From Acidovorax temperans (GTDB taxonomy: Bacteria; Pseudomonadota; Gammaproteobacteria; Burkholderiales; Burkholderiaceae_C): DNA of 64,000 nucleotides. Below are positions 632 to 58,577 of the stretch, piece by piece. Position 1 is the stretch's first letter. The number at the start of each line of letters is the position of its first letter. The stretch spans positions 1,144,501 through 1,208,500 of the forward strand of contig NZ_VFPV01000002.1 in NCBI RefSeq assembly GCF_006716905.1, read 5' to 3'. The notes beneath the pieces are model-generated. The model had not been told where the DNA came from, did not search any database, and worked only from the letters and a program-made list of their open reading frames with translations. The position numbers were made by a program, and so were the translations under genes.

Positions 632-991
632 TCAGAACTTCATCACGTTCCAGACACGGGGCGCGGTGTTGGTTTCAGCACCGCTGTTGCTGCCGCTGCG
701 GCTGCGTGCGCCGTCGGGCGACTTCACTTCGTAGGCGGGCATGTCGCTGCCCTTGGGCTGCACGTTGATGCTTTGCGTTTGGCCGCCCACGCGCAGCTCG
801 TCCACGCGGCTGCCGCCGTCTTCCACCCGAATGCGTTCAGCGCGCTGGTTGCCACGGCCGCCAAGTTGCTCTGGATTTGATAGCTGCTCGCGCTTTTCCA
901 CATTGCCCTGGGTGGCATTTTGGTTGGTATTTTGGGCCAGCAGGGGGCTGGACGCCAAGCCCAGCAAGAGAAAAAGTTGAAGTGCGCGCAT
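632..991 (-). CDS. DUF2782 small exported protein
   Basis: A 119-residue protein with a signal peptide (MRALQLFLLLGLASSPLLA, cleavage probably after AQA/LA-Q around residue 19-20), followed by an Asn/Gln-rich segment and a core with R-I-R-V-E-D-G-G-S-R-V-D-E-L-R-V-G-G. This matches the DUF2782 family of small periplasmic proteins, of unknown function, usually encoded beside thrB and polA. I start it at the ATG at 989-991, because an upstream in-frame start would put 31 residues in front of the signal peptide. It is co-directional with thrB, 110 bp upstream of it, so the two may share a transcript. Confidence 0.8.
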   Translation of the reverse strand: MRALQLFLLLGLASSPLLAQNTNQNATQGNVEKREQLSNPEQLGGRGNQRAERIRVEDGGSRVDELRVGGQTQSINVQPKGSDMPAYEVKSPDGARSRSGSNSGAETNTAPRVWNVMKF

Positions 992-4515: not shown

Positions 4516-5718
4516 ATGCCGAATCAGCTCTACAAAATTCCGCGTGTGACAGACGTTCAAATCGTGCACGCGTTGACCAAACTTGGCAAAGAGTTTGGCG
4601 ATTTCGATGTCTCCGCCAATGCGATGCAGCATGGGCTGGGATCTGTGAGGTTTCCCGGTGAACCAGCGCTGCCTGCCTGGCAGCAGGTCATTGCACTAAA
4701 TAGTGAACTCATTGACCATTTCACTGCAGGTATTGTCGGCATATCTGTAACTTACTACAGGGGCGGAAGTACTGGAGACCCAGTTCAAAAGTCCCCCGTG
4801 CTTGACGACCTTTTTATTGACCTTAATGGCGTCGATCCAGGACGCCTGAAGGCGGCGGCTGCGGTTCTTGCAGCTTTTCGCCCGGTATCTGTACCGAAAT
4901 CAGCCAAAGCCAGTGAAGCAGTTTTGGCGCAACAGGCCATTCAAGAGTCGACGTTTGCCCGACTTCAAAAGCAACTCGAAGAGCTTTTTGCGCAGACGAT
5001 CCAAGTTCGCCAGCAGCTTGATGATTCTGTGCGGCAGAAAACTGAAGAGTTGGAGGCGGCGTTTTTAGCCAAGCAGCATGCTGCTGATGAGGAGATCAAC
5101 AGACGGCAAGCCGACTTGCAAGAAAGGCATGACGAGCTTCAGCGTCGCGCTCAGGAGTTGGATGACAGCGACAACACCTTTGCGCGTCGAAAGATTCGTG
5201 ATGGCATGCTCAATGATGTAACCGAGCGAGTCAAAAATTTTGACGTGTCCAACGCTACGCGGAATGCTCGTAGGCCTGTGGAATGGGGTATGCGAAGCTT
5301 GATCTTTCTTTTTATTCTGTTGATGGCATGGACGGGGTTCGAGCTGTTCACGAGTCGTGCGGCGCAGACGTCAATCGAAGCAGCCGTTACACACATCCGA
5401 GAAGCCGCGTCACCGGCAGCGTCTCCCGCATCCTCTGTGTCTGCAAATCTGGGGCTTGCTACATCAATGCTGCACGACGCGTCGACTGAACGTATTGCAC
5501 TTTGGATTCGCTTCTCCTTGTTAACGATCGGTCTCGTTGGAGCAATCCTTTACTACATCCGCTGGCAGAGCCGTTGGGCGGAGCAATTCGCGGCTACCGA
5601 AAACTCCCTCAAGCAATTTCACTTAGACGTGAACCGTACGAATTGGGTAGTGGAAACGTGCCTAGAGTGGCGAAAAGAGTCTGACTCTGCTATCCCACTT
5701 TCTCTAGCAGGCCGTTGA
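4516..5718 (+). CDS. Coiled-coil membrane protein, 3' end replaced by IS5
   Basis: 400 residues as it reads now. Residues ~1-120 form a globular N-terminal part. Residues ~125-225 are a long charged, Gln/Glu-rich coiled coil. Two hydrophobic segments follow (about 268-286 and 343-361) with a ~55-residue loop, and then a soluble tail. I do not recognise the family. Base use is clearly less GC-rich than polA, suggesting acquired DNA. A good ribosome site (GGGAGG, 4506-4511) precedes the ATG. The last native codons end at the CTAG at 5704-5707; the final Ala-Gly-Arg and the stop come from the IS5 terminal repeat, so the natural C-terminus is lost. A membrane-anchored sensor or scaffold is possible, but this is inference. 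Confidence 0.6.
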   Translation: MPNQLYKIPRVTDVQIVHALTKLGKEFGDFDVSANAMQHGLGSVRFPGEPALPAWQQVIALNSELIDHFTAGIVGISVTYYRGGSTGDPVQKSPVLDDLFIDLNGVDPGRLKAAAAVLAAFRPVSVPKSAKASEAVLAQQAIQESTFARLQKQLEELFAQTIQVRQQLDDSVRQKTEELEAAFLAKQHAADEEINRRQADLQERHDELQRRAQELDDSDNTFARRKIRDGMLNDVTERVKNFDVSNATRNARRPVEWGMRSLIFLFILLMAWTGFELFTSRAAQTSIEAAVTHIREAASPAASPASSVSANLGLATSMLHDASTERIALWIRFSLLTIGLVGAILYYIRWQSRWAEQFAATENSLKQFHLDVNRTNWVVETCLEWRKESDSAIPLSLAGR

Positions 5719-7029
5719 AAAAGTGGGCATCGAACGCATCAGGGACGCTGTTTTCGAAGAAACGAGTGGCCCAGACGCGTCTGCGCAGCGATTGCACCGG
5801 CCAATCTGGCCTGTTTGCAGGCCATCTCGCCCATTTCGGGCGCACGTATCCCCGGGCTCACGCATGATGCGCGTCCCACCAGCCACCCAGACTGCCCATG
5901 CGCACCAGGTTGTAGGTGGCAAAGCACAGCAGCGCCTGGCCCGCGAGCTTGGCCTGACCGATCAGCTTGGTCTTGGCCAGACCACCCACGGTCTTGATCC
6001 AGCCAAAGGCCTCCTCGATGCGCTTGCGCACCTTCAGGCTGGTCTTGTAGCTCTCGTGCCGCGTGACTCTGGCGTCGACCGCCGAGTGCTTGTCCTTGGC
6101 CGCCACGTGTGGCGTGACCAAAAGCCGGCGGCAGCCCTTGATGAAGGCCTTGCTGTCGTAGCCCTTGTCGGCCCCGACCGTGGCCCGCTTGTTCCTGTTG
6201 CCCCGGCGCCCCAGCATGGCCAGCGCCGCTTCGCGCTCGGCGGTGCCACTGGCGTGGGTGATCTCAACATCCACGATCAGCCCGTTGCGGTTTTCCATGA
6301 GGATGTGCCCCATGTGGCACAGGCGGGACTTGTCACCCGCGCTCTTCTTGAACAACCGTGCATCAGCGTCCGTGGTGCTTTGGTGGGTGTCGTTGCAGCG
6401 CTCCTGTCCTTTGAAGTCCACCTCGGGATTGCGTCCGGGCGGCGTGTCGCTGTCATCGTCTTTGCGCTTGAAGCTCTTGTGCGAGGCCCAGGCTTCGATG
6501 AGCGTGCCGTCCACGCTGAAGTGCTCGTCGCTGGCAAGCCGCCCCCACTGGGCGCTGAGCTTGACGCGCTCGAAGAAGGCACGGGCGAGGTCTTCGTTGA
6601 ACAAGCGTTCGCGGTTGGCGCTGAAGGTGGAGTGGTCCCAGACCTTGTCTTCGATGTTCAGGCCCACGAACCAGCGGTACAGCAGGTTGTAGCTGACCGC
6701 CTCGACCAGTTGGCGCTCGCTGCGGATGGAGAACAGGATCTGCAGCAGCAAGGCCTTGAGCAGCATCTCCGGCGGCACCGAGGGGCGGCCCCGGCGGGCG
6801 TACACCGCGTCGAACTCGCGGTTCATCGTCGCCAGCAGCGCATCGACTGCGGCGCGCAGTTTGCGCAGCGGGTGTGTCGCCGGTACCCGCTCTTCAAGGC
6901 TGATGTAGCTGAACATCGCCCCCTGGAAGTCTTGGTTGCCTCTCATCGTCCTCGTCTGGGTTGTTCGCCGATGGCTTCAGATCGTACTGGCCGAGGCCAG
7001 CGTCGGCGGGGGATTTTTTCAACGGCCTG
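5708..7029 (-). mobile_element. IS5-family element, copy 1
   Basis: 1322 bp bounded by 15-bp perfect terminal inverted repeats (CAGGCCGTTGAAAAA at 5708-5722 and its complement at 7015-7029). The 4-bp sequence CTAG lies on both sides (5704-5707; on the right it is C-T-A at 7030-7032 plus G at 8215, split by the IS630 element). CTAG fits the YTAR targets of the IS5 subgroup. Because the flanking sequences on the two sides are unrelated, this could be a true duplication or the result of recombination between two IS copies. Confidence 0.9.
5858..6946 (-). CDS. IS5-family transposase (copy 1)
   Basis: 362-residue DDE transposase, full length. It has the N-terminal DUF772-like segment found in IS5 proteins and the catalytic blocks S-V-D-G-T-L-I-E-A-W (first Asp), V-G-A-D-K-G-Y-D-S (second Asp) and R-I-E-E-A-F-G-W-I-K (Glu). 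It is almost identical to the copy at 8533-9621, differing at a few N-terminal residues (for example NREFDAV here against HSEFEAV there). It occupies most of the element and reads in the opposite direction to the second copy. Confidence 0.93.
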   Translation of the reverse strand: MRGNQDFQGAMFSYISLEERVPATHPLRKLRAAVDALLATMNREFDAVYARRGRPSVPPEMLLKALLLQILFSIRSERQLVEAVSYNLLYRWFVGLNIEDKVWDHSTFSANRERLFNEDLARAFFERVKLSAQWGRLASDEHFSVDGTLIEAWASHKSFKRKDDDSDTPPGRNPEVDFKGQERCNDTHQSTTDADARLFKKSAGDKSRLCHMGHILMENRNGLIVDVEITHASGTAEREAALAMLGRRGNRNKRATVGADKGYDSKAFIKGCRRLLVTPHVAAKDKHSAVDARVTRHESYKTSLKVRKRIEEAFGWIKTVGGLAKTKLIGQAKLAGQALLCFATYNLVRMGSLGGWWDAHHA

Positions 7030-8450: not shown

Positions 8451-9771
8451 CAGGCCGTTGAAAAATCCTTCGCCGCCGCCCGTGTGGGCCGCTACGATCT
8501 GAAGCCATCCAAGAACGACCCAGACAAGAAAGATGAGAGGCAACCAAGACTTCCAGGGGGCGATGTTCAGCTACATCAGCCTTGAAGAGCGCGTGCCAGC
8601 GGCACACCCGCTGCGCAAGTTGCGCGCCGTGGTCGATGCGCTGCTGGCGACGATGCACAGCGAGTTCGAAGCGGTGTATGCCCGCCGCGGGCGCCCCTCG
8701 GTGCCGCCCGAGATGCTGCTCAAGGCCTTGCTGCTGCAGATCCTGTTCTCCATCCGCAGCGAGCGCCAACTGGTCGAGGCGGTCAACTACAACCTGCTGT
8801 ACCGCTGGTTCGTGGGCCTGAACATCGAAGACAAGGTCTGGGACCACTCCACCTTCAGCGCCAACCGCGAACGCTTGTTCAACGAAGACCTCGCCCGTGC
8901 CTTCTTCGAGCGCGTCAAGCTCAGCGCCCAGTGGGGGCGGCTTGCCAGCGACGAGCACTTCAGCGTGGACGGCACGCTCATCGAAGCCTGGGCCTCGCAC
9001 AAGAGCTTCAAGCGCAAAGACGATGACAGCGACACGCCGCCCGGACGCAATCCCGAGGTGGACTTCAAAGGACAGGAGCGCTGCAACGACACCCACCAAA
9101 GCACCACGGACGCTGATGCACGGTTGTTCAAGAAGAGCGCGGGTGACAAGTCCCGCCTGTGCCACATGGGGCACATCCTCATGGAAAACCGCAACGGGCT
9201 GATCGTGGATGTTGAGATCACCCACGCCAGTGGCACCGCCGAGCGCGAAGCGGCGCTGGCCATGCTGGGGCGCCGGGGCAACAGGAACAAGCGGGCCACG
9301 GTCGGGGCCGACAAGGGCTACGACAGCAAGGCCTTCATCAAGGGCTGCCGCCGGCTTTTGGTCACGCCACACGTGGCGGCCAAGGACAAGCACTCGGCGG
9401 TCGACGCCAGAGTCACGCGGCACGAGAGCTACAAGACCAGCCTGAAGGTGCGCAAGCGCATCGAGGAGGCCTTTGGCTGGATCAAGACCGTGGGTGGTCT
9501 GGCCAAGACCAAGCTGATCGGTCAGGCCAAGCTCGCGGGCCAGGCGCTGCTGTGCTTTGCCACCTACAACCTGGTGCGCATGGGCAGTCTGGGTGGCTGG
9601 TGGGACGCGCATCATGCGTGAGCCATGGGATACGTGCGCCCGAAACGGGCAAAACGGCCTGCAAACAGGCCGAAATGGCCCTCGAATTTGATTCGTGGGC
9701 GCGTCTGGGCGACTTGCTTCTTCGAAATCCACGACCTTGATGCGTTCGAAGAGCACTTTTTCAACGGCCTG
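8451..9771 (+). mobile_element. IS5-family element, copy 2
   Basis: 1321 bp with the same 15-bp inverted ends as copy 1 (8451-8465 and 9757-9771), in opposite orientation. A perfect 4-bp target duplication TTAA lies at 8447-8450 and 9772-9775, matching the YTAR preference. The TTAA on the left directly abuts the end of the older IS5 remnant, so it probably landed in that element's own target duplication. On the right it interrupts the DUF4041 gene. Confidence 0.93.
8533..9621 (+). CDS. IS5-family transposase (copy 2)
   Basis: 362-residue DDE transposase, near-identical to the one at 5858-6946, with all three catalytic blocks intact (D-G-T-L-I-E-A-W; A-D-K-G-Y-D-S; E-E-A-F-G-W-I-K). The start ATG at 8533 is followed by R-G-N-Q-D-F-Q-G-A-M-F-S-Y. 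The element seems functional as judged from an open frame and intact ends. Confidence 0.93.
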   Translation: MRGNQDFQGAMFSYISLEERVPAAHPLRKLRAVVDALLATMHSEFEAVYARRGRPSVPPEMLLKALLLQILFSIRSERQLVEAVNYNLLYRWFVGLNIEDKVWDHSTFSANRERLFNEDLARAFFERVKLSAQWGRLASDEHFSVDGTLIEAWASHKSFKRKDDDSDTPPGRNPEVDFKGQERCNDTHQSTTDADARLFKKSAGDKSRLCHMGHILMENRNGLIVDVEITHASGTAEREAALAMLGRRGNRNKRATVGADKGYDSKAFIKGCRRLLVTPHVAAKDKHSAVDARVTRHESYKTSLKVRKRIEEAFGWIKTVGGLAKTKLIGQAKLAGQALLCFATYNLVRMGSLGGWWDAHHA

Positions 9772-9775
9772 TTAA

Positions 9776-11309: not shown

Positions 11310-11377
11310 GGCGGCGTGAGGCGGGCGGCCCGCCTGGGCTTGGCGGGGCTGCCGAATTGGCTTTGTGCATGAAAACG

Positions 11378-11419
11378 GCTGCTGGCGCTTGATAATCAAG
11401 CGCCAGCAGCTATCTTTTT
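11378..11419 (+). terminator. Terminator formed by a repeat-family palindrome
   Basis: A perfect 16-bp inverted repeat around one central base (11378-11410; arm GCTGCTGGCGCTTGAT) followed by TATC and a run of nine T. It lies 68 bp after the yghU stop codon and would work as a Rho-independent terminator. It is also the core of the interspersed palindromic repeat (family A) seen at nine other places in the window, so a repeat copy has taken the terminator role. Confidence 0.7.
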
Positions 11420-11847: not shown

Positions 11848-11905
11848 AAAAATGCCTCTAGGGCAATACTGATAAGCGCTAATAGCTATGACATTGATAG
11901 CAATC
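11848..11905 (-). repeat. Interspersed palindromic repeat, family A
   Basis: In reverse orientation: GCCTCTAGGGC, then AAGCGCTAATAGCTAT and the ATTGATAGCAAT end. The ATG of the ZIP transporter (11888) and its first six codons lie inside this copy. Confidence 0.65.
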
Positions 11906-12865: not shown

Positions 12866-14710
12866 ATGAACGCCGCAGCCGCTTCCACTTCTTCCCCTTC
12901 CTCACCCGCGCGCCTGGGCTTGCTGGCCCAGCCCACCCGCTTTCTGTTCTTCACCGGCAAGGGTGGTGTGGGTAAAACCTCCTTGTCGACCGCTACTGCC
13001 ATCGCTTTGGCAGATGCTGGGCGGCGCGTGCTGCTGGTGAGCACTGACGCAGCCTCGAACCTCGATGAGATGCTGGGTGTGCCGCTGTCCAACCAGCCGG
13101 TGCCCGTGCCCGGTGTGCCGGGGCTGAGCATGCTCAACATCGACCCCGACAACGCCGCCGAGGCCTACCGCCAGCGCGTGCTGGCGCAACTGGAGGCCAC
13201 GGCCACCGAAGACGAGCGCGCCACGGTGCGCGAGCAGCTCTCGGGCGCCTGCACCACCGAAATCGCCGCGTTCGATGAATTTGCCGCCCTGCTGGCCAGC
13301 GAGGGGGCGGATGCCGACCACACCTTCGACCATGTGGTGTTTGACACCGCGCCCACCGGCCACACGCTGCGCCTGCTGAGCTTGCCCAAGGCCTGGACGG
13401 GATTTTTGGCGGGCAACGACCGGGGCGCCTCCTGCCTGGGGCCGCACTCGGGGCTGAAGATGCAGGAGGCCCGCTTCAACGCGGCCCTGGCGGCACTGAG
13501 CAACCCTGCGCTGACCACCGTGGTGCTCGTCACCCGCCCCGATCCCCGCCCCATGCAAGAGGCCGCCCGCACCGCCGTAGAACTGCGTGCCCTGGGGCTT
13601 GCCAACCAGCGCCTGGCCATCAACGGCGTGTTCCGCGCCAGCCAGCCGGGGCAAGACCCGGTGGCCGACGCCATCGAGCGCCTGGGCCGCGAGGCCATGG
13701 GCCAGATGCCTGATGCCCTGGCGCAACTGCCGCGCGACGAAGTGCCCCTGCGTGCCTTCGATACCGTGGGCCTGCCAGCCCTGCGCGCCTTGCTGGGTGG
13801 GGATGTCGTACCCCCCGCTACGCCAGCGGCTGCGGCTGGCGCCGCTTTGCAGGCCGAACCGCTGGCCGCCATGGCCGACGCACTGGCTGCCAAGGGCCAC
13901 GGGCTCATTATGGTGATGGGCAAGGGTGGCGTGGGCAAAACCACCATTGCCGCTGCCCTGGCCGTGGGCCTGGTTCAGCGGGGCCACAGCGTGCACCTCA
14001 CCACCACCGACCCGGCGGCCCACGTGCAAAGCCAGCTCGACGGCAGCCTGCCCGGGCTGAAAGTGGGGCGCATCGACCCCCGGGCCGAAACGCAGGCCTA
14101 CATCGACAAGATCATGGCCACGCGCGGCAAGGCTCTGGATGACGCAGGCCGCGCGCTGCTGCTGGAAGATTTGCAGTCGCCCTGCACCGAAGAGGTGGCC
14201 GTGTTCCATGCCTTCAGCCGCGTGGTGAACGAAGCCCGCACGGCCTTTGTGGTGCTGGACACCGCCCCCACCGGCCACAGCCTGTTGCTGATGGACGCCA
14301 CCGGGGCCTACCACCGGCAGATGACTCAGCAATACCAGGGCAGCGCCGGGGGCGCGATGGCCAAGCACATCATCACCCCGCTGATGCGCCTGCAAGACGC
14401 CGACATGACCCATGTGGTCATCGTGACGCTGCCCGAGGTGACACCCGTGAGCCAGGCCGCAGCCCTGCAGGAAGACCTGCGCCGCGCCCACATCGAGCCC
14501 TGGGCATGGGTCATCAACAAAAGCGTGGCCGCCACGGGTACGTCTGACCCGCTGCTGCAAGCACGCCTGGTGGGCGAGCGGAAGCAGTGCGAGCGCATAG
14601 CCCAGGGCTTGGCCCAACGCACCTTCGTACTGCCCTGGCTGACCGAGCCACCCGTGGGGGTGGAAGCTCTGGGTGGGCTGGTCACTGCGGATGGTTTGCT
14701 ATCTCATTGA
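12866..14710 (+). CDS. arsA: ArsA-type arsenite/anion-transporting ATPase, tandem domains
   Basis: 614 residues made of two homologous ATPase halves. Each has a deviant Walker A loop, F-T-G-K-G-G-V-G-K-T-S (~30-39) and M-G-K-G-G-V-G-K-T-T (~351-360), and a D-T-A-P-T-G-H switch II/signal motif. The three metalloid-binding cysteines of classic ArsA are present at C129 (G-A-C-T-T-E-I), C190 (A-S-C-L-G-P) and C440 (S-P-C-T-E-E), so arsenite or antimonite activation is plausible. Classic ArsA drives the ArsB pump, but no arsB, arsD, arsC or arsR is nearby. The ATG at 12866 avoids a 25-residue non-conserved extension. The stop codon lies inside a family A repeat. Confidence 0.9.
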   Translation: MNAAAASTSSPSSPARLGLLAQPTRFLFFTGKGGVGKTSLSTATAIALADAGRRVLLVSTDAASNLDEMLGVPLSNQPVPVPGVPGLSMLNIDPDNAAEAYRQRVLAQLEATATEDERATVREQLSGACTTEIAAFDEFAALLASEGADADHTFDHVVFDTAPTGHTLRLLSLPKAWTGFLAGNDRGASCLGPHSGLKMQEARFNAALAALSNPALTTVVLVTRPDPRPMQEAARTAVELRALGLANQRLAINGVFRASQPGQDPVADAIERLGREAMGQMPDALAQLPRDEVPLRAFDTVGLPALRALLGGDVVPPATPAAAAGAALQAEPLAAMADALAAKGHGLIMVMGKGGVGKTTIAAALAVGLVQRGHSVHLTTTDPAAHVQSQLDGSLPGLKVGRIDPRAETQAYIDKIMATRGKALDDAGRALLLEDLQSPCTEEVAVFHAFSRVVNEARTAFVVLDTAPTGHSLLLMDATGAYHRQMTQQYQGSAGGAMAKHIITPLMRLQDADMTHVVIVTLPEVTPVSQAAALQEDLRRAHIEPWAWVINKSVAATGTSDPLLQARLVGERKQCERIAQGLAQRTFVLPWLTEPPVGVEALGGLVTADGLLSH

Positions 14711-14761
14711 TAGCTGCTGGCGCTTTCCACGTCTGGCTTGGAGGCCGAAAACGCTTGAAAC
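14697..14761 (+). repeat. Interspersed palindromic repeat, family A
   Basis: TTTGCTATCTCATTGATAGC, then TGCTGGCGCTTTCC and CTTGGAGGCCGAAAACGC. It overlaps the last four codons and stop of arsA. Confidence 0.7.
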
Positions 14762-20708: not shown

Positions 20709-20852
20709 GGGCATGCTGTGCCGCACCCGCTGAGCGAGGGGTGGGCAGGGCGCGGCGGTCAAAGGCCTCTGTGCCCCCTTTCTGCGCCCGGGAAGCCGCT
20801 GGCATAAAATCACGCCCCCGAGGCTCACGGGCGCGTGGCGCCCACCCCAGGT

Positions 20853-21123
20853 TTAGAGCGTGTTATGCATTTTTACGTACCCACGTTGGACCCTGAGGTT
20901 AGTGATCGCAAGGCACGGACTGCTGGCAAGGCTCAAGCCTTGGCAAGGTCTGCAACGCCGCGAGCGCTAACCTCAGGGCCCAACCCTCCGGGAAAGCCGG
21001 AGACAGGCCCGGCCACTTTGTTGCACGCCGCTGACGGTACACGTACCGCTGCGCGTCTTGCGCCTCGTTGCCGGGCCTTTCTCCGGTTTTCGTGGGCACG
21101 TAAAAGTACATAACACGCTCTAA
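20853..21123. repeat. MITE-like element with ~30-bp inverted ends
   Basis: 271 bp whose ends are imperfect inverted repeats of about 30 bp (TTAGAGCGTGTTATG, then TTTTACGT and CCCA, at 20853-20883; complement at 21094-21123). Inside are two further long stems: GTTGGACCCTGAGGTTAG (20885-20902) against CTAACCTCAGGGCCCAAC (20967-20984), and CCGGAGACAGGCCCGGC against GCCGGGCCTTTCTCCGG. It encodes no transposase. Its right end stops 3 bp before the ATG of the next gene. Confidence 0.75.
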
Positions 21124-21126
21124 CCC

Positions 21127-24100
21127 ATGAATGTTCCGATCGCGTTGGCTGCCTTGCAGACGCAGGCCGCCGAGCCTGCCCGTCTGCGTGAAATTCCGTA
21201 CAACTACACCTCGTTCTCTGACCGGGAGATCGTGATCCGTTTGCTGGGTTCCTCCGCCTGGGACCTGTTGGACCAGCTGCGCAAAGAGCGTCGCACCGGC
21301 CGGTCGGCCCGCATGCTGTATGAAGTGCTGGGCGACATCTGGGTGGTGCAGCGCAACCCCTATTTGCAGGACGACCTGCTGGACAACCCCGACCGCCGCA
21401 AGCTGCTGGTCGATGCGCTGAACCACCGCTTGGGCGAAATCGAAAAACGCCGCACCCCCGCTGATGATGCCGAGCGCGACCGCCTGGTGGGCGAACTGGT
21501 GGTGGCCGCGCGCCGCGCCGTGGTGGAGTTCAACGCCACGTTCGAGCAGGCCAGCAAGCTGCGCCGCCAGATTCAAAAGACGCTGGGCCGCCTGACCGCC
21601 AAGGACAACATCAAGTTCGACGGCCTCTCACGCGTGAGCCACGTGACCGACGCGACCGACTGGCGCGTGGAATACCCCTTTGTCGTGCTCACGCCGGACA
21701 CTGAGGCCGAGATGGCTGCGCTGGTCAAGGGCTGCATCGAGCTGGACCTGACCATCATCCCGCGTGGGGGTGGCACGGGCTACACGGGTGGCGCGATTCC
21801 GCTGACCTGGAAGAGCGTGGTTATCAACACCGAAAAGCTCGAAGCCATGACCGAGGTGGAGATGCGCCGCCTGCCGGGTCTGGACCGGGAGGTGGGCACC
21901 ATCTGGACCGAAGCCGGTGTGGTCACGCAGCGCGTGGCCGATGCGGCCGAGCGCGCAGGCTTTGTGTTTGCGGTGGACCCGACCAGCGCCGAGGCATCGT
22001 GCATTGGCGGCAACATCGCCATGAACGCAGGCGGCAAGAAGGCCGTGCTGTGGGGCACGGCGCTGGACAACCTGGCCAGCTGGCGCATGGTCACGCCCGA
22101 CGCCCAGTGGCTGGAAGTGACGCGTCTGGACCACAACATGGGCAAGATCCATGACGTGGAGACGGCCACCTTCGAGCTGCAGTATTTCGAGGCCGACGGC
22201 AAGACGCCCGTGCGCACCGAGCGCCTGAGCATCCCAGGCCGCACCTTCCGCAAGGAAGGTCTGGGCAAGGACGTGACGGACAAGTTCCTGGCCGGTCTGC
22301 CCGGCATTCAGAAGGAAGGCTGCGACGGCCTGATCACCAGCGCCCGCTGGGTGGTGCACCGCATGCCCGAGCACACCCGCACCGTGTGCCTGGAGTTCTT
22401 TGGCAACGCCAAGGATGCTGTGCCCAGCATCGTGGACATCAAGGACTACATGTTTTCCCTGCAAAAGCGCAGTGGCGAAGGAGGGAATGAACAGGGCCCC
22501 TCCCCCGTTCTTCTGGCGGGCCTCGAGCACCTGGATGACCGCTATCTGAAGGCCGTGGGCTACGCCACCAAGAGCAAGAAAGGCAACGGCGGCCTGCCCA
22601 AGATGGTGCTGATTGGCGACATTGCGGGCGACGACGCCGACGAAGTGGCCCGCGTGACCAGCGAAGTGGTGCGCCTGGCCAACACCCGCAGCGGCGAGGG
22701 CTTTATTGCCATCAGCGCCGATGCGCGCAAGAAGTTCTGGGCCGACCGCAAGAAGACGGCCGCCATCAGCCGCCATACCAACGCCTTCAAGATCAATGAA
22801 GACGTGGTGATCCCGCTGCCGCGCATGGCCGAGTACACCGACGGCATCGAGCGCATCAACATCGAGCTGAGCCTGCGCAACAAGCTCAAGCTGTGCGACA
22901 CCCTGACTGAGTTTTTTGAGCGTGGCAATCTTCCGCTGGGCAAACAGGATGCGGCCGATGACGTGCCCGCTGCCGAGCTGCTGGAAGAGCGCGTGGCCCA
23001 AGCCATTGCCCTGGTGGCGGAAGTGCGTGCCCTGTGGCAAGGCTGGCTCGACAACGTCGAAACCCTGTTCCCGCAGTTGCAGGACCACACCCTGCGCGCC
23101 AGCTGGAAGACACAGCTGCGCACGCCGCTGCAAGGCATCTTCACGGGTGCGGCATTCAAGCCCATCCTGGACGAGGCCGTGGCTATCCACAAGCGCGTGC
23201 TCAAGGGCCGCGTGTGGGTGGCGCTGCACATGCACGCGGGCGACGGGAATGTGCACACCAACATTCCCGTCAACAGCGACGACTACGAGATGCTGCAGAC
23301 CGCGCACGAGGCGGTGGCCCGCATCATGGTGCTGGCCCGCAGCCTGGACGGCGTGATCTCGGGCGAACACGGCATCGGCATCACCAAGCTGGAGTTCTTG
23401 ACCGACGCGGAGCTGCAGCCCTTTGCCGACTACAAGCGCAAGGTGGACCCGGAAGGCCGCTTCAACAAGGGCAAGCTGCTACGAAATCAGGAGCTGCCCG
23501 CGCTTGCTGGACAAGCGCCAGAGGCCAAAAACGCTTCAAACGCTGCACTCATGCATGCCGATTTGACCAATGCCTACACGCCCAGCTTCGGGCTGATGGG
23601 GCACGAGTCGCTCATCATGCAGCAAAGCGACATTGGCGCCATTGCCGATTCGGTGAAGGACTGCCTGCGTTGCGGCAAGTGCAAGCCCGTGTGTTCCACC
23701 CATGTGCCACGCGCCAGTCTGCTGTACAGCCCTCGCAACAAGATTCTGGCTACTTCGCTGCTGGTCGAAGCCTTCCTGTACGAAGAGCAGACGCGCCGCG
23801 GTGTGTCCATCAAGCACTGGCAAGAGTTTGAAGACGTGGCAGACCACTGCACGGTGTGCCACAAGTGCTACACGCCTTGCCCGGTCAAGATCGACTTTGG
23901 CGATGTGACCATGAACATGCGCAACCTGTTGCGCAAGATGGGCAAGAAGAGCTTCCGCCCCGGCAACAAGATGGCCATGGCCATGCTGAACGCCACCAAC
24001 CCCGACACCATCAAGCTGCTGCGTTCGGGCATGGTCAACGTGGGCTTCAAGGCCCAGCGCATGGCGGTGGATTTGCTGCGCAAGGTGGGCCGCAAGCAGA

Positions 24101-25074
24101 CGGCCAAGCCTCCAGCCACGGTGGGCACCGCTCCGATCAAGGAGCAGGTGATCCACTTCATCAACAAGAAGCTGCCCGGCGGCCTGCCCAAGAAGACGGC
24201 ACGCGCGCTGCTCGATATCGAGGACAAGGACTACGTCCCGATCATCCGCGACCCGCAGACCACCACGGCCGAGACCGAGGCGGTGTTCTACTTCCCCGGC
24301 TGCGGGTCCGAACGCCTGTTCAGTCAGGTGGGCCTGGCCACGCAGGCCATGCTGTGGCACGCGGGCGTGCAGACCGTGCTGCCTCCGGGCTACCTGTGCT
24401 GCGGCTACCCGCAGCGCGGCAGCGGCCAGTTCGACAAGGCCGAGAAGATGATCACGGACAACCGGGTGCTCTTCCACCGCGTGGCGAACACGCTGAACTA
24501 CCTGGACATCAAGACGGTGGTGGTGAGCTGCGGCACCTGCTACGACCAGCTGCAGGGCTACCAGTTCGACAAGATCTTCCCCGGTTGCCGCATCATCGAC
24601 ATCCACGAGTACCTGCTGGAAAAGGGCATCACCCTGCAAGGCAAGGGCGCCTACCTGTACCACGAGCCCTGCCACAACCCGATGAAGCAGCAGGACTCGA
24701 TGAAGACGGTGAAGGCGCTGGTGGGCGAGCAGGTGCTCAAGAGCGACCGCTGCTGCGGCGAATCCGGCACCCTGGGCGTGACCCGGCCCGATGTGTCCAC
24801 CCAGGTGCGCTTCCGCAAGGAAGAAGAAATCCGCAAGGGCGAAGCCCTGCTGCGTGCCAGCGGTGCCGTGGGCGAGAAGGAAAACGTCAAGATCCTGACC
24901 AGCTGCCCCAGCTGCCTGCAGGGCCTGAACCGCTACCAGGACGACTTGCAAAACGGCCTGCTCGAAGCCGATTACATCGTGATCGAAATGGCCCGCGAGA
25001 TCCTGGGCGAGAACTGGATGCCCGAATACGTGCACCGTGCCAACCAGGGCGGTATCGAGCGGGTGCTCGTCTGA
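21127..25074 (+). CDS. FAD/FMN-binding oxidoreductase fused to Fe-S/CCG domains (DUF3683 type)
   Basis: 1315 residues. An N-terminal DUF3683-like region (~15-150, [17 protein letters not shown]) is followed by a PCMH-type FAD domain (~190-375, [11 protein letters not shown] and [15 protein letters not shown]), a GlcD/Dld C-terminal domain ([12 protein letters not shown], ~702-713), two 4Fe-4S motifs (C-x2-C-x2-C-x3-C at ~845 and C-x2-C-x2-C-x3-C-P at ~907) and two CCG domains (C-C-G-Y-P ~1088, C-C-G-E-S ~1209). This is a one-chain equivalent of GlcD plus GlcF, probably oxidising D-lactate or a similar 2-hydroxyacid. Residues ~784-805 come from a family A repeat. No Shine-Dalgarno site is visible because the MITE abuts the ATG. 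Confidence 0.9.
23477..23541 (+). repeat. Family A palindromic repeat inside a coding region
   Basis: TGCTACGAAATCAGGAGCTG, then CGCGCTTGCTGGACAAGCGC and CAGAGGCCAAAAACGCTTCA. It matches the intergenic copies along their whole length but is translated in frame as the linker between the flavin half and the Fe-S half of the oxidoreductase. Confidence 0.75.
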
Positions 25075-26036: not shown

Positions 26037-26094
26037 GTTGCTATTGAAAAGATAGCTGCCTGCGCTTGTATATCAAGCGCTAGAACCCATTTTT
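26037..26094 (+). repeat. Interspersed palindromic repeat, family A
   Basis: GGTTGCTATTGAAAAGATAG, then CTGCCTGCGCTTGTATATCA and AGCGCTAGAACCC. It lies between the DUF971 gene and ubiE; the palindrome may act as a transcript-end hairpin. Confidence 0.75.
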
Positions 26095-26175: not shown

Positions 26176-26907
26176 ATGAGCACCACCCATTTTGGATTCC
26201 AGTCGGTAGACGAAAAAGAAAAAGCACAGCGCGTACGCGGCGTGTTTGACTCGGTCGCGTCCAAGTACGACGTGATGAACGACCTGATGTCCGGCGGCCT
26301 GCACCGCGCCTGGAAGGCCTACACCGTGATGGTGGCCAACCTGCGCGAAGGCAGCCAGGTGCTGGACATTGCAGGCGGCACGGGCGACCTTTCTCTGGCA
26401 TTTGCCAAAAAGGTGGGCACCACCGGGCGCGTGGTGCACACCGATATCAACGAAGCCATGCTGCGCACGGGGCGCAACCGGCTCATTGATGCTGGCGTGA
26501 TCTTGCCCACCCTGGTGTGCGACGCCGAACAGTTGCCTTTTCCCGACGCGCATTTCGATGTGGTGAGCGTGGCGTTTGGTTTGCGCAACATGACGCACAA
26601 GGACCGCGCGCTGACCGAAATGTGCCGTGTGCTCAAACCCGGCGGCAAACTGCTGGTGCTGGAATTCTCCAAAGTGGCCAAGCCGCTGGAGAAGGTTTAC
26701 GACTGGTATTCCTTCAAAATCCTGCCCCAGCTGGGCAAGATGGTGGCGGGCGATGACGCCAGCTACCGTTACCTGGCAGAGTCCATTCGGATGCACCCCG
26801 GTCAGGAAGAACTCAAATCCCTCATGCAACAAAGCGGCTTTGGGCATGTGGACTATCACAACATGACTGGCGGAGTAGTGGCTTTGCATGTTGGAATCAA
26901 GTGCTGA
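26176..26907 (+). CDS. ubiE: Ubiquinone/menaquinone C-methyltransferase UbiE
   Basis: 243-residue SAM-dependent methyltransferase that methylates the benzoquinol ring. SAM motif I is [13 protein letters not shown] (~64-76). The UbiE signatures [18 protein letters not shown] and [11 protein letters not shown] are intact. Length equals the family norm. It heads a run of same-strand genes (Tim44-like, ubiJ, ubiB) all likely tied to ubiquinone synthesis. Confidence 0.97.
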
Positions 26908-40060: not shown

Positions 40061-40124
40061 GTTGCTATTGATTTGATAGCTGCTGGCGCTTGTTGGTAAA
40101 GCGCTAGAGGCCTAAAACCCTTGC
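40061..40124 (+). repeat. Interspersed palindromic repeat, family A
   Basis: GTTGCTATTGATTTGATAGC, then TGCTGGCGCTTGTTGG and AAAGCGCTAGAGGCC. It is between clsB and folE, 16 bp after the clsB stop. This is the copy closest to consensus. Confidence 0.8.
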
Positions 40125-41318: not shown

Positions 41319-41450
41319 CACCCCCCTGAGGCGCTGCGCGCCTTCCCCCCGCTCTCGCACCGCTGCGCGGTGCGGGCAGGGGGACGCCACCAGTGCGGCG
41401 GGGCGGCCCTTGCACGGTGGCCTCCGGCTTGGGCCGCGCCAGTGGCGTAT
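41319..41450 (+). repeat. Long interspersed repeat, family B
   Basis: Begins CACCCCCCTGAGGCGCTGCG 5 bp after the BLUF stop codon; continues CTTCCCCCCGCTCTCGC and GCGGGCAGGGGGACGC and ends near GCGCCAGTGGCG. Same order of blocks as the copies at 52216-52359 and 56011-56160. Confidence 0.75.
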
Positions 41451-44462: not shown

Positions 44463-44520
44463 TTGCTATGAAAAGCATAGCTTCTGGCGCTTTTTCCAAT
44501 TGCGCTAGAGCCGTTTTTTT
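44463..44520 (+). repeat. Interspersed palindromic repeat, family A
   Basis: TTGCTATGAAAAGCATAGC, then TTCTGGCGCTTTTTCC and TTGCGCTAGAGCCG, ending in a T-run. It lies 9 bp after the exporter stop and may end its transcript. Confidence 0.72.
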
Positions 44521-46034: not shown

Positions 46035-46092
46035 TTGCTATTGAATCAATAGCTGGTGGCGTTTATCCCATAAGCGCCAGGTGCCAAAATCA
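46035..46092 (+). repeat. Interspersed palindromic repeat, family A
   Basis: TTGCTATTGAATCAATAGC, then TGGTGGCGTTTATCC and TAAGCGCCAGGTGCC, then AAAATCA. Its 3' edge includes the 8-bp target duplication of the adjacent ISL3-like element. Confidence 0.75.
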
Positions 46093-46109: not shown

Positions 46110-46785
46110 CTAGCTACCAAAAGGAGGCCCCCCGGCTCTGCCGGGGAGGCAGTAGAAGTTTGACTTTTCAGGAGGTTGTCCACCGTAGAGACTTTCAATC
46201 GTGAGCCGCCAAGCAAACGAAAGGAAGAAACACGATGGACAAGTATGAAAGTTTGAGTCACACGGCCTGGGATTGCAAATATCACGTGGTCTTCATCCCC
46301 AAGTGTCGAAGGCGAACGCTGTACAAGCAGCTACGCGAACACCTGGGTGAGGTATTCAGAAAGTTGGCCGCGCAAAAGGAATGCAGGGTTGAAGAGGGGC
46401 ATCTGATGCCCGATCACGTGCACATGATGCTGTCGATCCCACCGAAGTACTCGGTGTCGCAGGTGGTGGGCTTTATCAAAGGCAAGAGCGCAATCCACCT
46501 TGCGCGGGTGTACGGAGAGCGAAAGCGCAACTTCGTGGGTCAGCACTTCTGGGCGCGAGGGTACTTCGTCTCGACGGTGGGACGCGACGAAGCGGTGATA
46601 CGGGAGTACATCCGAAACCAGGAGAAGGAAGACGAGAGGTTGGACCAACTCGGTCTATGGAGGTGAGTAGCCACCGATAGGTGGCCCCAAGAATGAGGGG
46701 CCGCGTTAGCGACCCCTTACAGCCGCTTTGAGCGGCTCACATCCCGAATGCCCCCGGCTTTGCCGGGGGATGGTTACTGATGCAC
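46110..46785 (+). mobile_element. IS200/IS605-type element (approximate ends)
   Basis: Carries a single Y1 transposase gene. Subterminal hairpins CCCCCGGCTCTGCCGGGG (left, ~46126-46143) and CCCCCGGCTTTGCCGGGGG (right, ~46749-46767) are the expected end structures of this family, which has no inverted repeats or target duplications. Exact ends cannot be fixed from one copy. Confidence 0.7.
46235..46666 (+). CDS. tnpA: IS200/IS605-family Y1 transposase TnpA
   Basis: 143-residue HUH-superfamily single-strand transposase. H-V-H (61-63, in M-P-D-H-V-H-M-M-L) is the metal-binding pair and Y125 (E-Y-I-R-N-Q-E) is the likely nucleophile. The Y-H-V-V-F-I-P-K-C-R-R-R start and F-W-A-R-G-Y-F-V-S-T-V-G block are standard. 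It seems intact. GGAAGAAACACG precedes ATG. No tnpB or guide RNA accompanies it. Confidence 0.92.
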   Translation: MDKYESLSHTAWDCKYHVVFIPKCRRRTLYKQLREHLGEVFRKLAAQKECRVEEGHLMPDHVHMMLSIPPKYSVSQVVGFIKGKSAIHLARVYGERKRNFVGQHFWARGYFVSTVGRDEAVIREYIRNQEKEDERLDQLGLWR

Positions 46786-52119: not shown

Positions 52120-52175
52120 AATGGCCGCTAGCACTTATTAATAAAGCGCTTGTAGCTATTATTTTGGTAGCAAAT
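52120..52175 (-). repeat. Interspersed palindromic repeat, family A
   Basis: Reverse orientation: GGCCGCTAGCACTTATTAAT, AAAGCGCTTGTAGCTATTAT and TTGGTAGCAA. It lies just upstream of the amidase start codon, so it forms part of its leader. Confidence 0.7.
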
Positions 52176-52215: not shown

Positions 52216-52359
52216 GTGAAACTGGCGCGACCCATGCGCGGGCAGCCGAGCAAGGGCCTACGCCGGCCGCACCGCCCCGCAGCGAGGGCTGCGTCCCCCT
52301 GCCCGCGTGGCGCAGCCAGGCGAGAGCGGGGGGAAGACGCGGAGCGGCTCAGGGGGGTG
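52216..52359 (-). repeat. Long interspersed repeat, family B
   Basis: On the minus strand it starts CACCCCCCTGAGCCGCTCCG nine bases after the binding-protein stop, then CTTCCCCCCGCTCTCGCC, GCGGGCAGGGGGACGC and ends GCGCCAGTTTCAC. Same direction relative to the upstream gene as the other two copies. Confidence 0.78.
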
Positions 52360-58519: not shown

Positions 58520-58577
58520 TTAGGGCTCTAGCGCTTATACAGAAAGCGCTAGCAGCTATCAAAAAAATAGCAAATCA
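58520..58577 (-). repeat. Interspersed palindromic repeat, family A
   Basis: Reverse orientation: AGGGCTCTAGCGCTTATACA, then GAAAGCGCTAGCAGCTATCA and AAAAAATAGCAA. It sits between the convergent ferredoxin and pth genes; a strong palindrome (CTAGCGCTT/AAGCGCTAG) could end both transcripts. Confidence 0.78.

Follow-up and report, generated by a model that had tools for sequence, protein, structure and literature searches.

Host gene and translated repeat

The window (the whole 64,000-nucleotide stretch of Acidovorax temperans DNA under analysis) contains a long gene with a copy of a short repeat inside it:

21127..25074, + strand: host gene, encoding a DUF3683 - FAD_binding_4 - FAD-oxidase_C - Fer4_8 - CCG - DUF3400 protein of 1315 amino acids (ORF, Pfam)
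23478..23529, + strand: translated repeat copy, 52-nt core (profile match of 43.0 bits, E 4e-12 in the sequences searched; covariance model match)
23473..23541, + strand: extended similarity, with 83% identity, to the copy in a TrmJ-like gene of the same genome (blastn)
23478..23494, + strand: 5' arm of the copy, GCTACGAAATCAGGAGC, retained at the nucleotide level across genera (codon comparisons, 17-mer search)

Judged by the best stretch for each Pfam domain, the order DUF3683, FAD binding, FAD oxidase C, 4Fe-4S, CCG, and DUF3400 is that of the DUF3683 FAD-linked oxidase connected with serine synthesis. A role in serine synthesis has been proposed for proteins of the DUF3683/FAD/4Fe-4S/CCG build in Burkholderia and Herbaspirillum, and the same account, as excerpted, states that they failed to complement an E. 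coli serA strain (PMC5764234).

Since Pfam places FAD-oxidase_C at residues 690-784 and Fer4_8 at residues 843-922, the copy, which encodes residues ~784-805, begins at the end of the flavin domain, immediately C-terminal to it and before the ferredoxin domain. An earlier reading made from the sequence alone (the sequence-only reading) had claimed that a whole repeat copy is translated inside this FAD/Fe-S protein and that it occupies the linker joining the flavin module to the ferredoxin module. The first of these claims is upheld by blastn, profile, covariance model, and ORF, and the second by the Pfam limits, so the observation of a translated repeat copy is confirmed. The linker copy is not merely the naturally open frame of the repeat, since the family consensus has the stops TGA, TAG, and TAA where the linker copy has CAG, GAG, and CAA. 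An AlphaFold model of residues 640-960 (20 alignment rows) had a mean pLDDT of 35.5 and was set aside.

Upstream, a 277-bp element at 20850-21126 with 36-nt terminal inverted repeats (89%) abuts the ATG of the host gene. It is absent from that place in the six relatives examined (L009-L012, L090, L091), and its exact tip was found, among the loci examined, only at the host gene's own locus. The element looks like a MITE that separated the gene from its former leader.

The repeat family in A. temperans

When positions 23440-23580 were compared to their own genome by blastn, at least 39 further places were matched at E<=1e-3, the best match (E 2e-12) covering about 23473-23541. An iterated profile grown from one intergenic copy gave a 52-nt core, roughly GCTATTGATTTGATAGCTGCTGGCGCTTGTTGGATAAGCGCTAGAGGCCAAA. 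A covariance model with 9 base pairs, built from 38 copies including the linker copy, found at least 150 places in the 4.65-Mb genome, all those listed having E<=2e-7, so the genome holds at least 150 copies; the linker copy, itself part of the model, ranks 10th among the 150 best places. The repeat is palindromic, about 52-66 bp in size, and mostly intergenic. The G+C content of the listed model matches is 30-62%, mostly 43-59%. The window holds these other copies:

868..900, + strand: partial copy, 19 bits (profile)
11377..11419, - strand: intergenic copy (profile)
11854..11901, - strand: weak copy, 23 bits (profile)
14698..14744, + strand: weak copy, 23 bits (profile)
26040..26089, + strand: intergenic copy upstream of ORF 26176-26907 (profile, covariance model, locus comparison)
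40064..40114, + strand: intergenic copy (profile)
44465..44511, + strand: intergenic copy (profile)
46037..46088, + strand: intergenic copy, about 180 bases from an IS200-like tnpA at 46265-46621 (profile)
52122..52171, - strand: intergenic copy (profile)
58522..58571, - strand: intergenic copy (profile)

The copy upstream of ORF 26176-26907, a gene that we take to be ubiE-like, is matched by corresponding copies in three Acidovorax and two Rhodoferax loci (L009, L010, L011, L033, L048), and the best-kept part of the otherwise altered spacer is the 5' arm (GCTATTnAAA...AGC) together with the first GCGC. Intergenic copies lie near gene ends: with genes called by codon use, none of the 21 copies for which both neighbors could be called lies between divergent genes. 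There is no bias of orientation relative to both neighbors (9 same/same, 8 opposite/opposite). Rfam, at gathering scores, finds only two tRNAs in the whole window. In a test for a conserved hairpin, the stem bases proved to be preserved at the level of sequence; the second hairpin's loop-side pairs were not preserved, and there was no support from covariation. No mover of the repeat was found; as for mobilization by RAYT, no copy of the repeat lies within the 5 kb read around the only RAYT-like match.

Other repetitive DNA was encountered in the course of these comparisons. The genome has 34 equal-scoring copies of the IS200-like tnpA, that at 46265-46621 being one of them, and at 5 of 20 such loci (L312-L317, L349-L362) the end of the element contains, touches, or is close to a copy of the repeat (E<=2.1e-8), with two more cases recognized by eye; because of these, the IS200-like element may favor the repeat as a target. 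A tandem array of about six copies of a 319-bp unit in L126 (G000:C3:284500-290500) carries copies of the repeat at the same spacing, and there is a second cluster of copies in L123. Within the window, 5705-7018 and 8461-9774 form an inverted pair whose 1314-nt arms are 95% complementary and 1442 nt apart, and 41319-41406 and 52272-52359 belong to a different family of G+C-rich repeats (88 nt, 83%) that may be BRE-like.

The linker in related organisms

All 20 loci drawn from other families of the order (18 families) cross the linker in one frame, and none is of the repeat type. Their linkers are of 7 amino acids (such as LPGADLx) in 17 cases and of 5, 11, and 19 amino acids in the rest. Because these loci are fused and lack the repeat, the fusion predates it. 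In the window's own GTDB family, the linker ranges from 11 to 49 amino acids and is crossed in one frame in 130 of 130 loci, consisting of 110 plus 20 picked among lower-scoring ones. Loci were kept only if both anchors were in one frame, and all 150 examined passed.

A repeat-type linker was recognized by the residues R-N-x-E, or near variants, after the first residue. This motif is found in 46 of the 110 family loci (which are not all distinct genomes, L020 and L094 being identical) and in 1 of the 20 lower-scoring ones; the remaining 64 of the 110 are without it. Among loci from named organisms, 25 of 80 have the residue motif and 10 of 80 have a match of the covariance model at the linker (E<=0.01), the latter including Acidovorax, Giesbergeria, Polaromonas, and Rhodoferax. 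Repeat-type linkers sit at the same place in all the family loci that have them, with varying decay. When 120 genomes of the order were searched, every one gave a match, some of these weak and not necessarily to orthologues, and the strong matches among those listed fall mostly in ORFs of about 1260-1420 amino acids.

These results support one of the two proposals of the sequence-only reading, that the repeat was inserted into the linker: repeat-type linkers occur at one place within the family, and those of the other families lack the repeat. An alignment of orthologues, which that reading had suggested, finds the residues encoded by the repeat in 0 of the 20 other-family loci, so the outcome that it had named as refuting its view did not arise. 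Two separate genes with the repeat between them, also to be looked for, were seen at none of the 150 loci examined, all of which are fused in one frame.

On a tree made with FastTree from the gene without its linker, the Acidovorax and Rhodoferax/Polaromonas parts consist largely of rows with repeat-type linkers; such linkers are absent from most Hydrogenophaga, from all rows named Limnohabitans, and from most of the lower-scoring family rows. The repeat-type label requires 22 changes on this tree, which implies either numerous losses or repeated insertion, copies having undergone decay, replacement, or more than one arrival. The 5' arm is the same at this site across genera, while the 3' part of the insert is strongly diverged. 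The 3' end comes in two forms, GGCCAAAAA and GGCCGATTT, which to the eye do not cleanly follow the tree, a pattern compatible with multiple insertions or with local conversion.

Other sequences occupy the place in some relatives. The linker of L105 holds a C/T-rich palindrome, a different repeat, and that of L076 a longer insert; L076 and L307 have unrelated long linkers. From the inserts in L105 and L076, it is as if the host linker accepts such additions readily.

Other translated copies

At least nine further genes of the A. temperans genome carry copies of the repeat in frame. Together with Pfam identifications, the hosts are MutS, UvrA, XdhA, TrmJ, YgiQ, an SDR, YhhN, PxpBC, and a PHP/PolIII-alpha protein, where the names MutS, UvrA, XdhA, TrmJ, YgiQ, and PxpBC go beyond Pfam and are our presumption. 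The sequence-only reading, correct in placing a translated copy in the linker and in offering insertion as an option but not in its account of the fusion, had noticed neither these genes nor the retention of the 5' arm described below.

A six-frame search of the genome with the translated peptide, using a profile built from the same five matches that it returned, gave five strong matches and no more, each free of stops and lying in a long ORF: MutS (916 amino acids), the host protein, an XdhA-like protein (603), UvrA (1968), and a TrmJ-like protein (275). The match ranked after these was much weaker, and most of the others hold stops. The copies in a Radical_SAM_N protein (YgiQ-like), the SDR, and the YhhN protein are read in another frame. 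In a sample chosen without regard to similarity to the linker (20 places hand-picked along the covariance model list, giving 21 copies), two copies lie within genes, the CT_C_D/CT_A_B fusion (PxpBC-like) and the PHP/PolIII-alpha protein. When the window is added to that sample, 3 of 29 copies of at least 30 bits are inside genes. Four of the ten in-gene copies lie between Pfam domains (those of the host protein, the XdhA-like protein, UvrA, and the PxpBC-like protein), and all ten run in the repeat's sense direction; a single antisense candidate, in L125, is doubtful.

A clean insertion, visible as added length, was seen only for the host linker and TrmJ. The TrmJ peptide is present in most rows of the same genus (L258 lacks it), and in the alignment all 11 loci of other families (11 of 11) are without it; by this comparison, the copy in TrmJ is indeed an insertion. 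In UvrA, 19 rows of the same genus have the peptide, which is heavily altered in two. Spacers with the copy are 36-39 amino acids long, and those of other families are 26, 26, 35, and 39, a variation that leaves UvrA ambiguous as an insertion. The region in MutS is 40 amino acids in 18 rows versus 41, 41, 41, and 45 in the four measurable other-family rows, similar lengths that imply no net insertion, and that in XdhA is 34 versus 36 in one other-family row; in these two proteins, either the repeat replaced sequence or the lengths mislead. MutS and TrmJ rows with a misplaced anchor (values such as 4, 155, and 187) were left out of the length comparison, and the case of TrmJ rests on the alignment.

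At the PxpBC-like junction, a copy, more or less changed, is found in all four same-genus genomes with a strong match, out of 24 searched. Two of the four matches have a stop somewhere, though not within the junction as read. One relative from another family is fused, with a different linker, and other relatives have the two domains as separate matches. In the A. temperans genome, the fusion is present twice, at L400 (G000:C2:1420410-1421710) and L431, with identical search scores.

Retention of the 5' arm

The 5' arm (GCTACGAAATnnnGAGC) is kept nearly letter for letter across genera. Its retention was assessed in 45 repeat-type genes (L094 being dropped as a duplicate), which were chosen by their residues; the amino acids are therefore conserved by construction, and codons are what must be compared. 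At the start of the insert, leucine is encoded by CTA in 28 of 42 rows with leucine, versus 0.6% of leucine codons in these genes. CGA appears in 26 of 45 rows versus 2.3% in these genes, AAT in 36 of 39 rows with asparagine versus 16%, and GAG in 44 of 45 rows. In 56 linkers without the repeat, the same columns have CTG in 49 and CGC in 44. The columns with CTA and CGA rank first and second for unusual codons among 985 columns with conserved residues.

The unusual codons are shared between distant genes. At tree distances above 0.24, a second row shares the CTA of a first in 64% of linker comparisons (634 of 987) versus 1% elsewhere in the gene (12 of 937), CGA in 544 of 980 (56%) versus 62 of 2130 (3%), and AAT in 1056 of 1146 versus 2622 of 9222, such comparisons being mutually non-independent. 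Within the genus, sharing of CTA amounts to 272/306 in UvrA versus 4/234 elsewhere, 240/272 in MutS versus 6/206, and 210/255 in TrmJ versus 6/57 (sums over distance bins). The GAG column shows 1 third-base change versus a mean of 10 over 51 glutamate columns, itself included. In the codon following GAG, the second base changes 16 times and the first base (C) only twice, and among the 21 columns with at least 14 second-base changes, no other shows so few changes at the first base. In the CTA and CGA codons, the third bases have 15 parsimony changes each, versus a gene median of 8; what is unusual about them is the preferred state, not slow change.

Conservation profiles of in-gene copies are weakly correlated with that of intergenic copies (Spearman 0.40 for UvrA, 0.12 for MutS, 0.37 for TrmJ, and 0.28 for the host gene). 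Of 120 family genomes, 21 contain the exact 17-mer of the arm, with 35 occurrences in total; the reversed control does not occur. Of 31 matches that were read, 11 are in the host linker, 3 resemble by eye other translated copies, and 17 do not.

Discussion

The history that we consider quite probable is a single early insertion that kept the frame, into the linker of an already fused protein, followed by vertical descent with the 5' arm kept at the nucleotide level. A short palindromic repeat, mostly intergenic, would have entered the linker at an early stage of Comamonadaceae evolution. To survive, a copy had to be free of stops in that frame; the linker would have tolerated it, presumably with no effect on the enzyme, and the copy would have been inherited vertically since. 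The 3' part may then have decayed or been lost in many lineages while the 5' arm was held. The copy in the linker is one of about ten translated copies in the A. temperans genome. Shared descent is supported by the same 5' arm at the same site across genera and by an exact 17-mer for which there is no large genomic pool.

The sequence-only reading had also seen in the repeat a possible explanation of the fusion, as the scar left when glcD-like and glcF-like genes were joined through an intergenic repeat. The copy does lie exactly between the two modules defined by Pfam, and the CT_C_D/CT_A_B (PxpB/PxpC-like) fusion in the same genome also has a copy at its junction, but the same fused frame is found without any repeat in 20 of 20 loci from other families, which rules out this origin for the host protein, and the PxpBC-like fusion occurs in another family (L419) without a recognizable repeat. 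We give the idea almost no chance. Several independent insertions of the same repeat family into a permissive linker would account for the 22 label changes on the tree, for the two forms of the 3' end, and for the other palindromic repeat in L105 and the unrelated long linkers in L076 and L307. Against such repeated arrivals, the lineages share the same 5' arm, loop included, and this loop is absent from the intergenic copies listed. Independent insertion is improbable to our minds.

What has kept the 5' arm is a separate matter, for which selection on the nucleic acid is the cause that we favor. The retention might instead be translational, a cluster of slow codons kept as a pause site at a domain border. 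CTA and CGA are, after all, the most unusual codons in the conserved columns, and four of the ten in-gene copies lie between domains. But GAG, which is not rare, is scarcely allowed to change its third base, the codon following it varies in its second base and hardly in its first, and an intergenic copy keeps a like arm across genera. A pause site seems a poor prospect. There is rather more to be said for the notion, still unlikely, that the retention is an artifact of youth or of conversion with other copies: the third bases of CTA and CGA do change and are not slow sites, and there is the weak correlation with the conservation of intergenic copies. However, the insert has diverged strongly in its 3' part, the loop of the arm differs from that of the intergenic copies listed, and at equal distances just 1-3% of comparisons share background rare codons. 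From the occurrences of the exact 17-mer, too, conversion with other copies is unlikely. Selection on the nucleic acid may go further, in that the arm GCTA-nn-AAA/T-nnnn-GAGC may be under purifying selection as DNA or RNA in at least four protein genes, as a second, non-protein message, with linkers adapting to the element and not the reverse. This we put forward tentatively, at somewhat less than an even chance.

Among known systems, the closest in behavior are the Rickettsia palindromic elements (RPE), which, as described in the sections available of PMC2229807, are palindromic and mostly intergenic but are also found in frame in conserved protein genes, where they are translated and apparently tolerated. 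The A. temperans repeat, too, is inserted in frame into protein-coding genes. It differs by description and length, being 52-66 bp with a model of 9 base pairs rather than a long stem-loop of 105-146 bp with terminal inverted repeats (PMC2229807), in belonging to another class of bacteria (the named relatives in the comparison are Comamonadaceae), and in having one arm retained at the nucleotide level. It appears to behave like RPE but to be another family. The betaproteobacterial repeat element (BRE) is known from Burkholderiales, including Comamonadaceae, and has some copies wholly within coding sequences, but the parts of its description considered here (PMC3110155) give a length of about 90 bp, an average G+C of 69% in Bordetella, and 4 and 1 copies in the two Acidovorax genomes listed. 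Compared by description, the A. temperans repeat has neither that length nor that composition, with a 52-nt core, mostly 43-59% G+C, and at least 150 copies. REP elements (PMC3733652, in part) and the enterobacterial RU/ERIC elements are likewise short palindromes in many copies, and RU-1 also occurs in frame in genes (PMC2229807, in part), but no GTAG or CGTC tag, as in REP elements, was recognized by eye at the 5' end of the A. temperans repeat. Among the open-licence publications listed in searches for repeats of this kind, we recognized none on this repeat family.

The best-known examples of translated palindromic repeats come from Rickettsia and are viewed as tolerated selfish DNA. The Comamonadaceae would have a separate repeat family, translated in housekeeping genes such as mutS and uvrA, with a depth from genus to family. 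The nucleotide-level retention of the 5' arm is the part most worth following. If it does reflect selection, then the repeats are not inert but act as DNA or RNA even within genes, and they would provide a direct handle on the long-standing question of what purpose small palindromic repeats serve.
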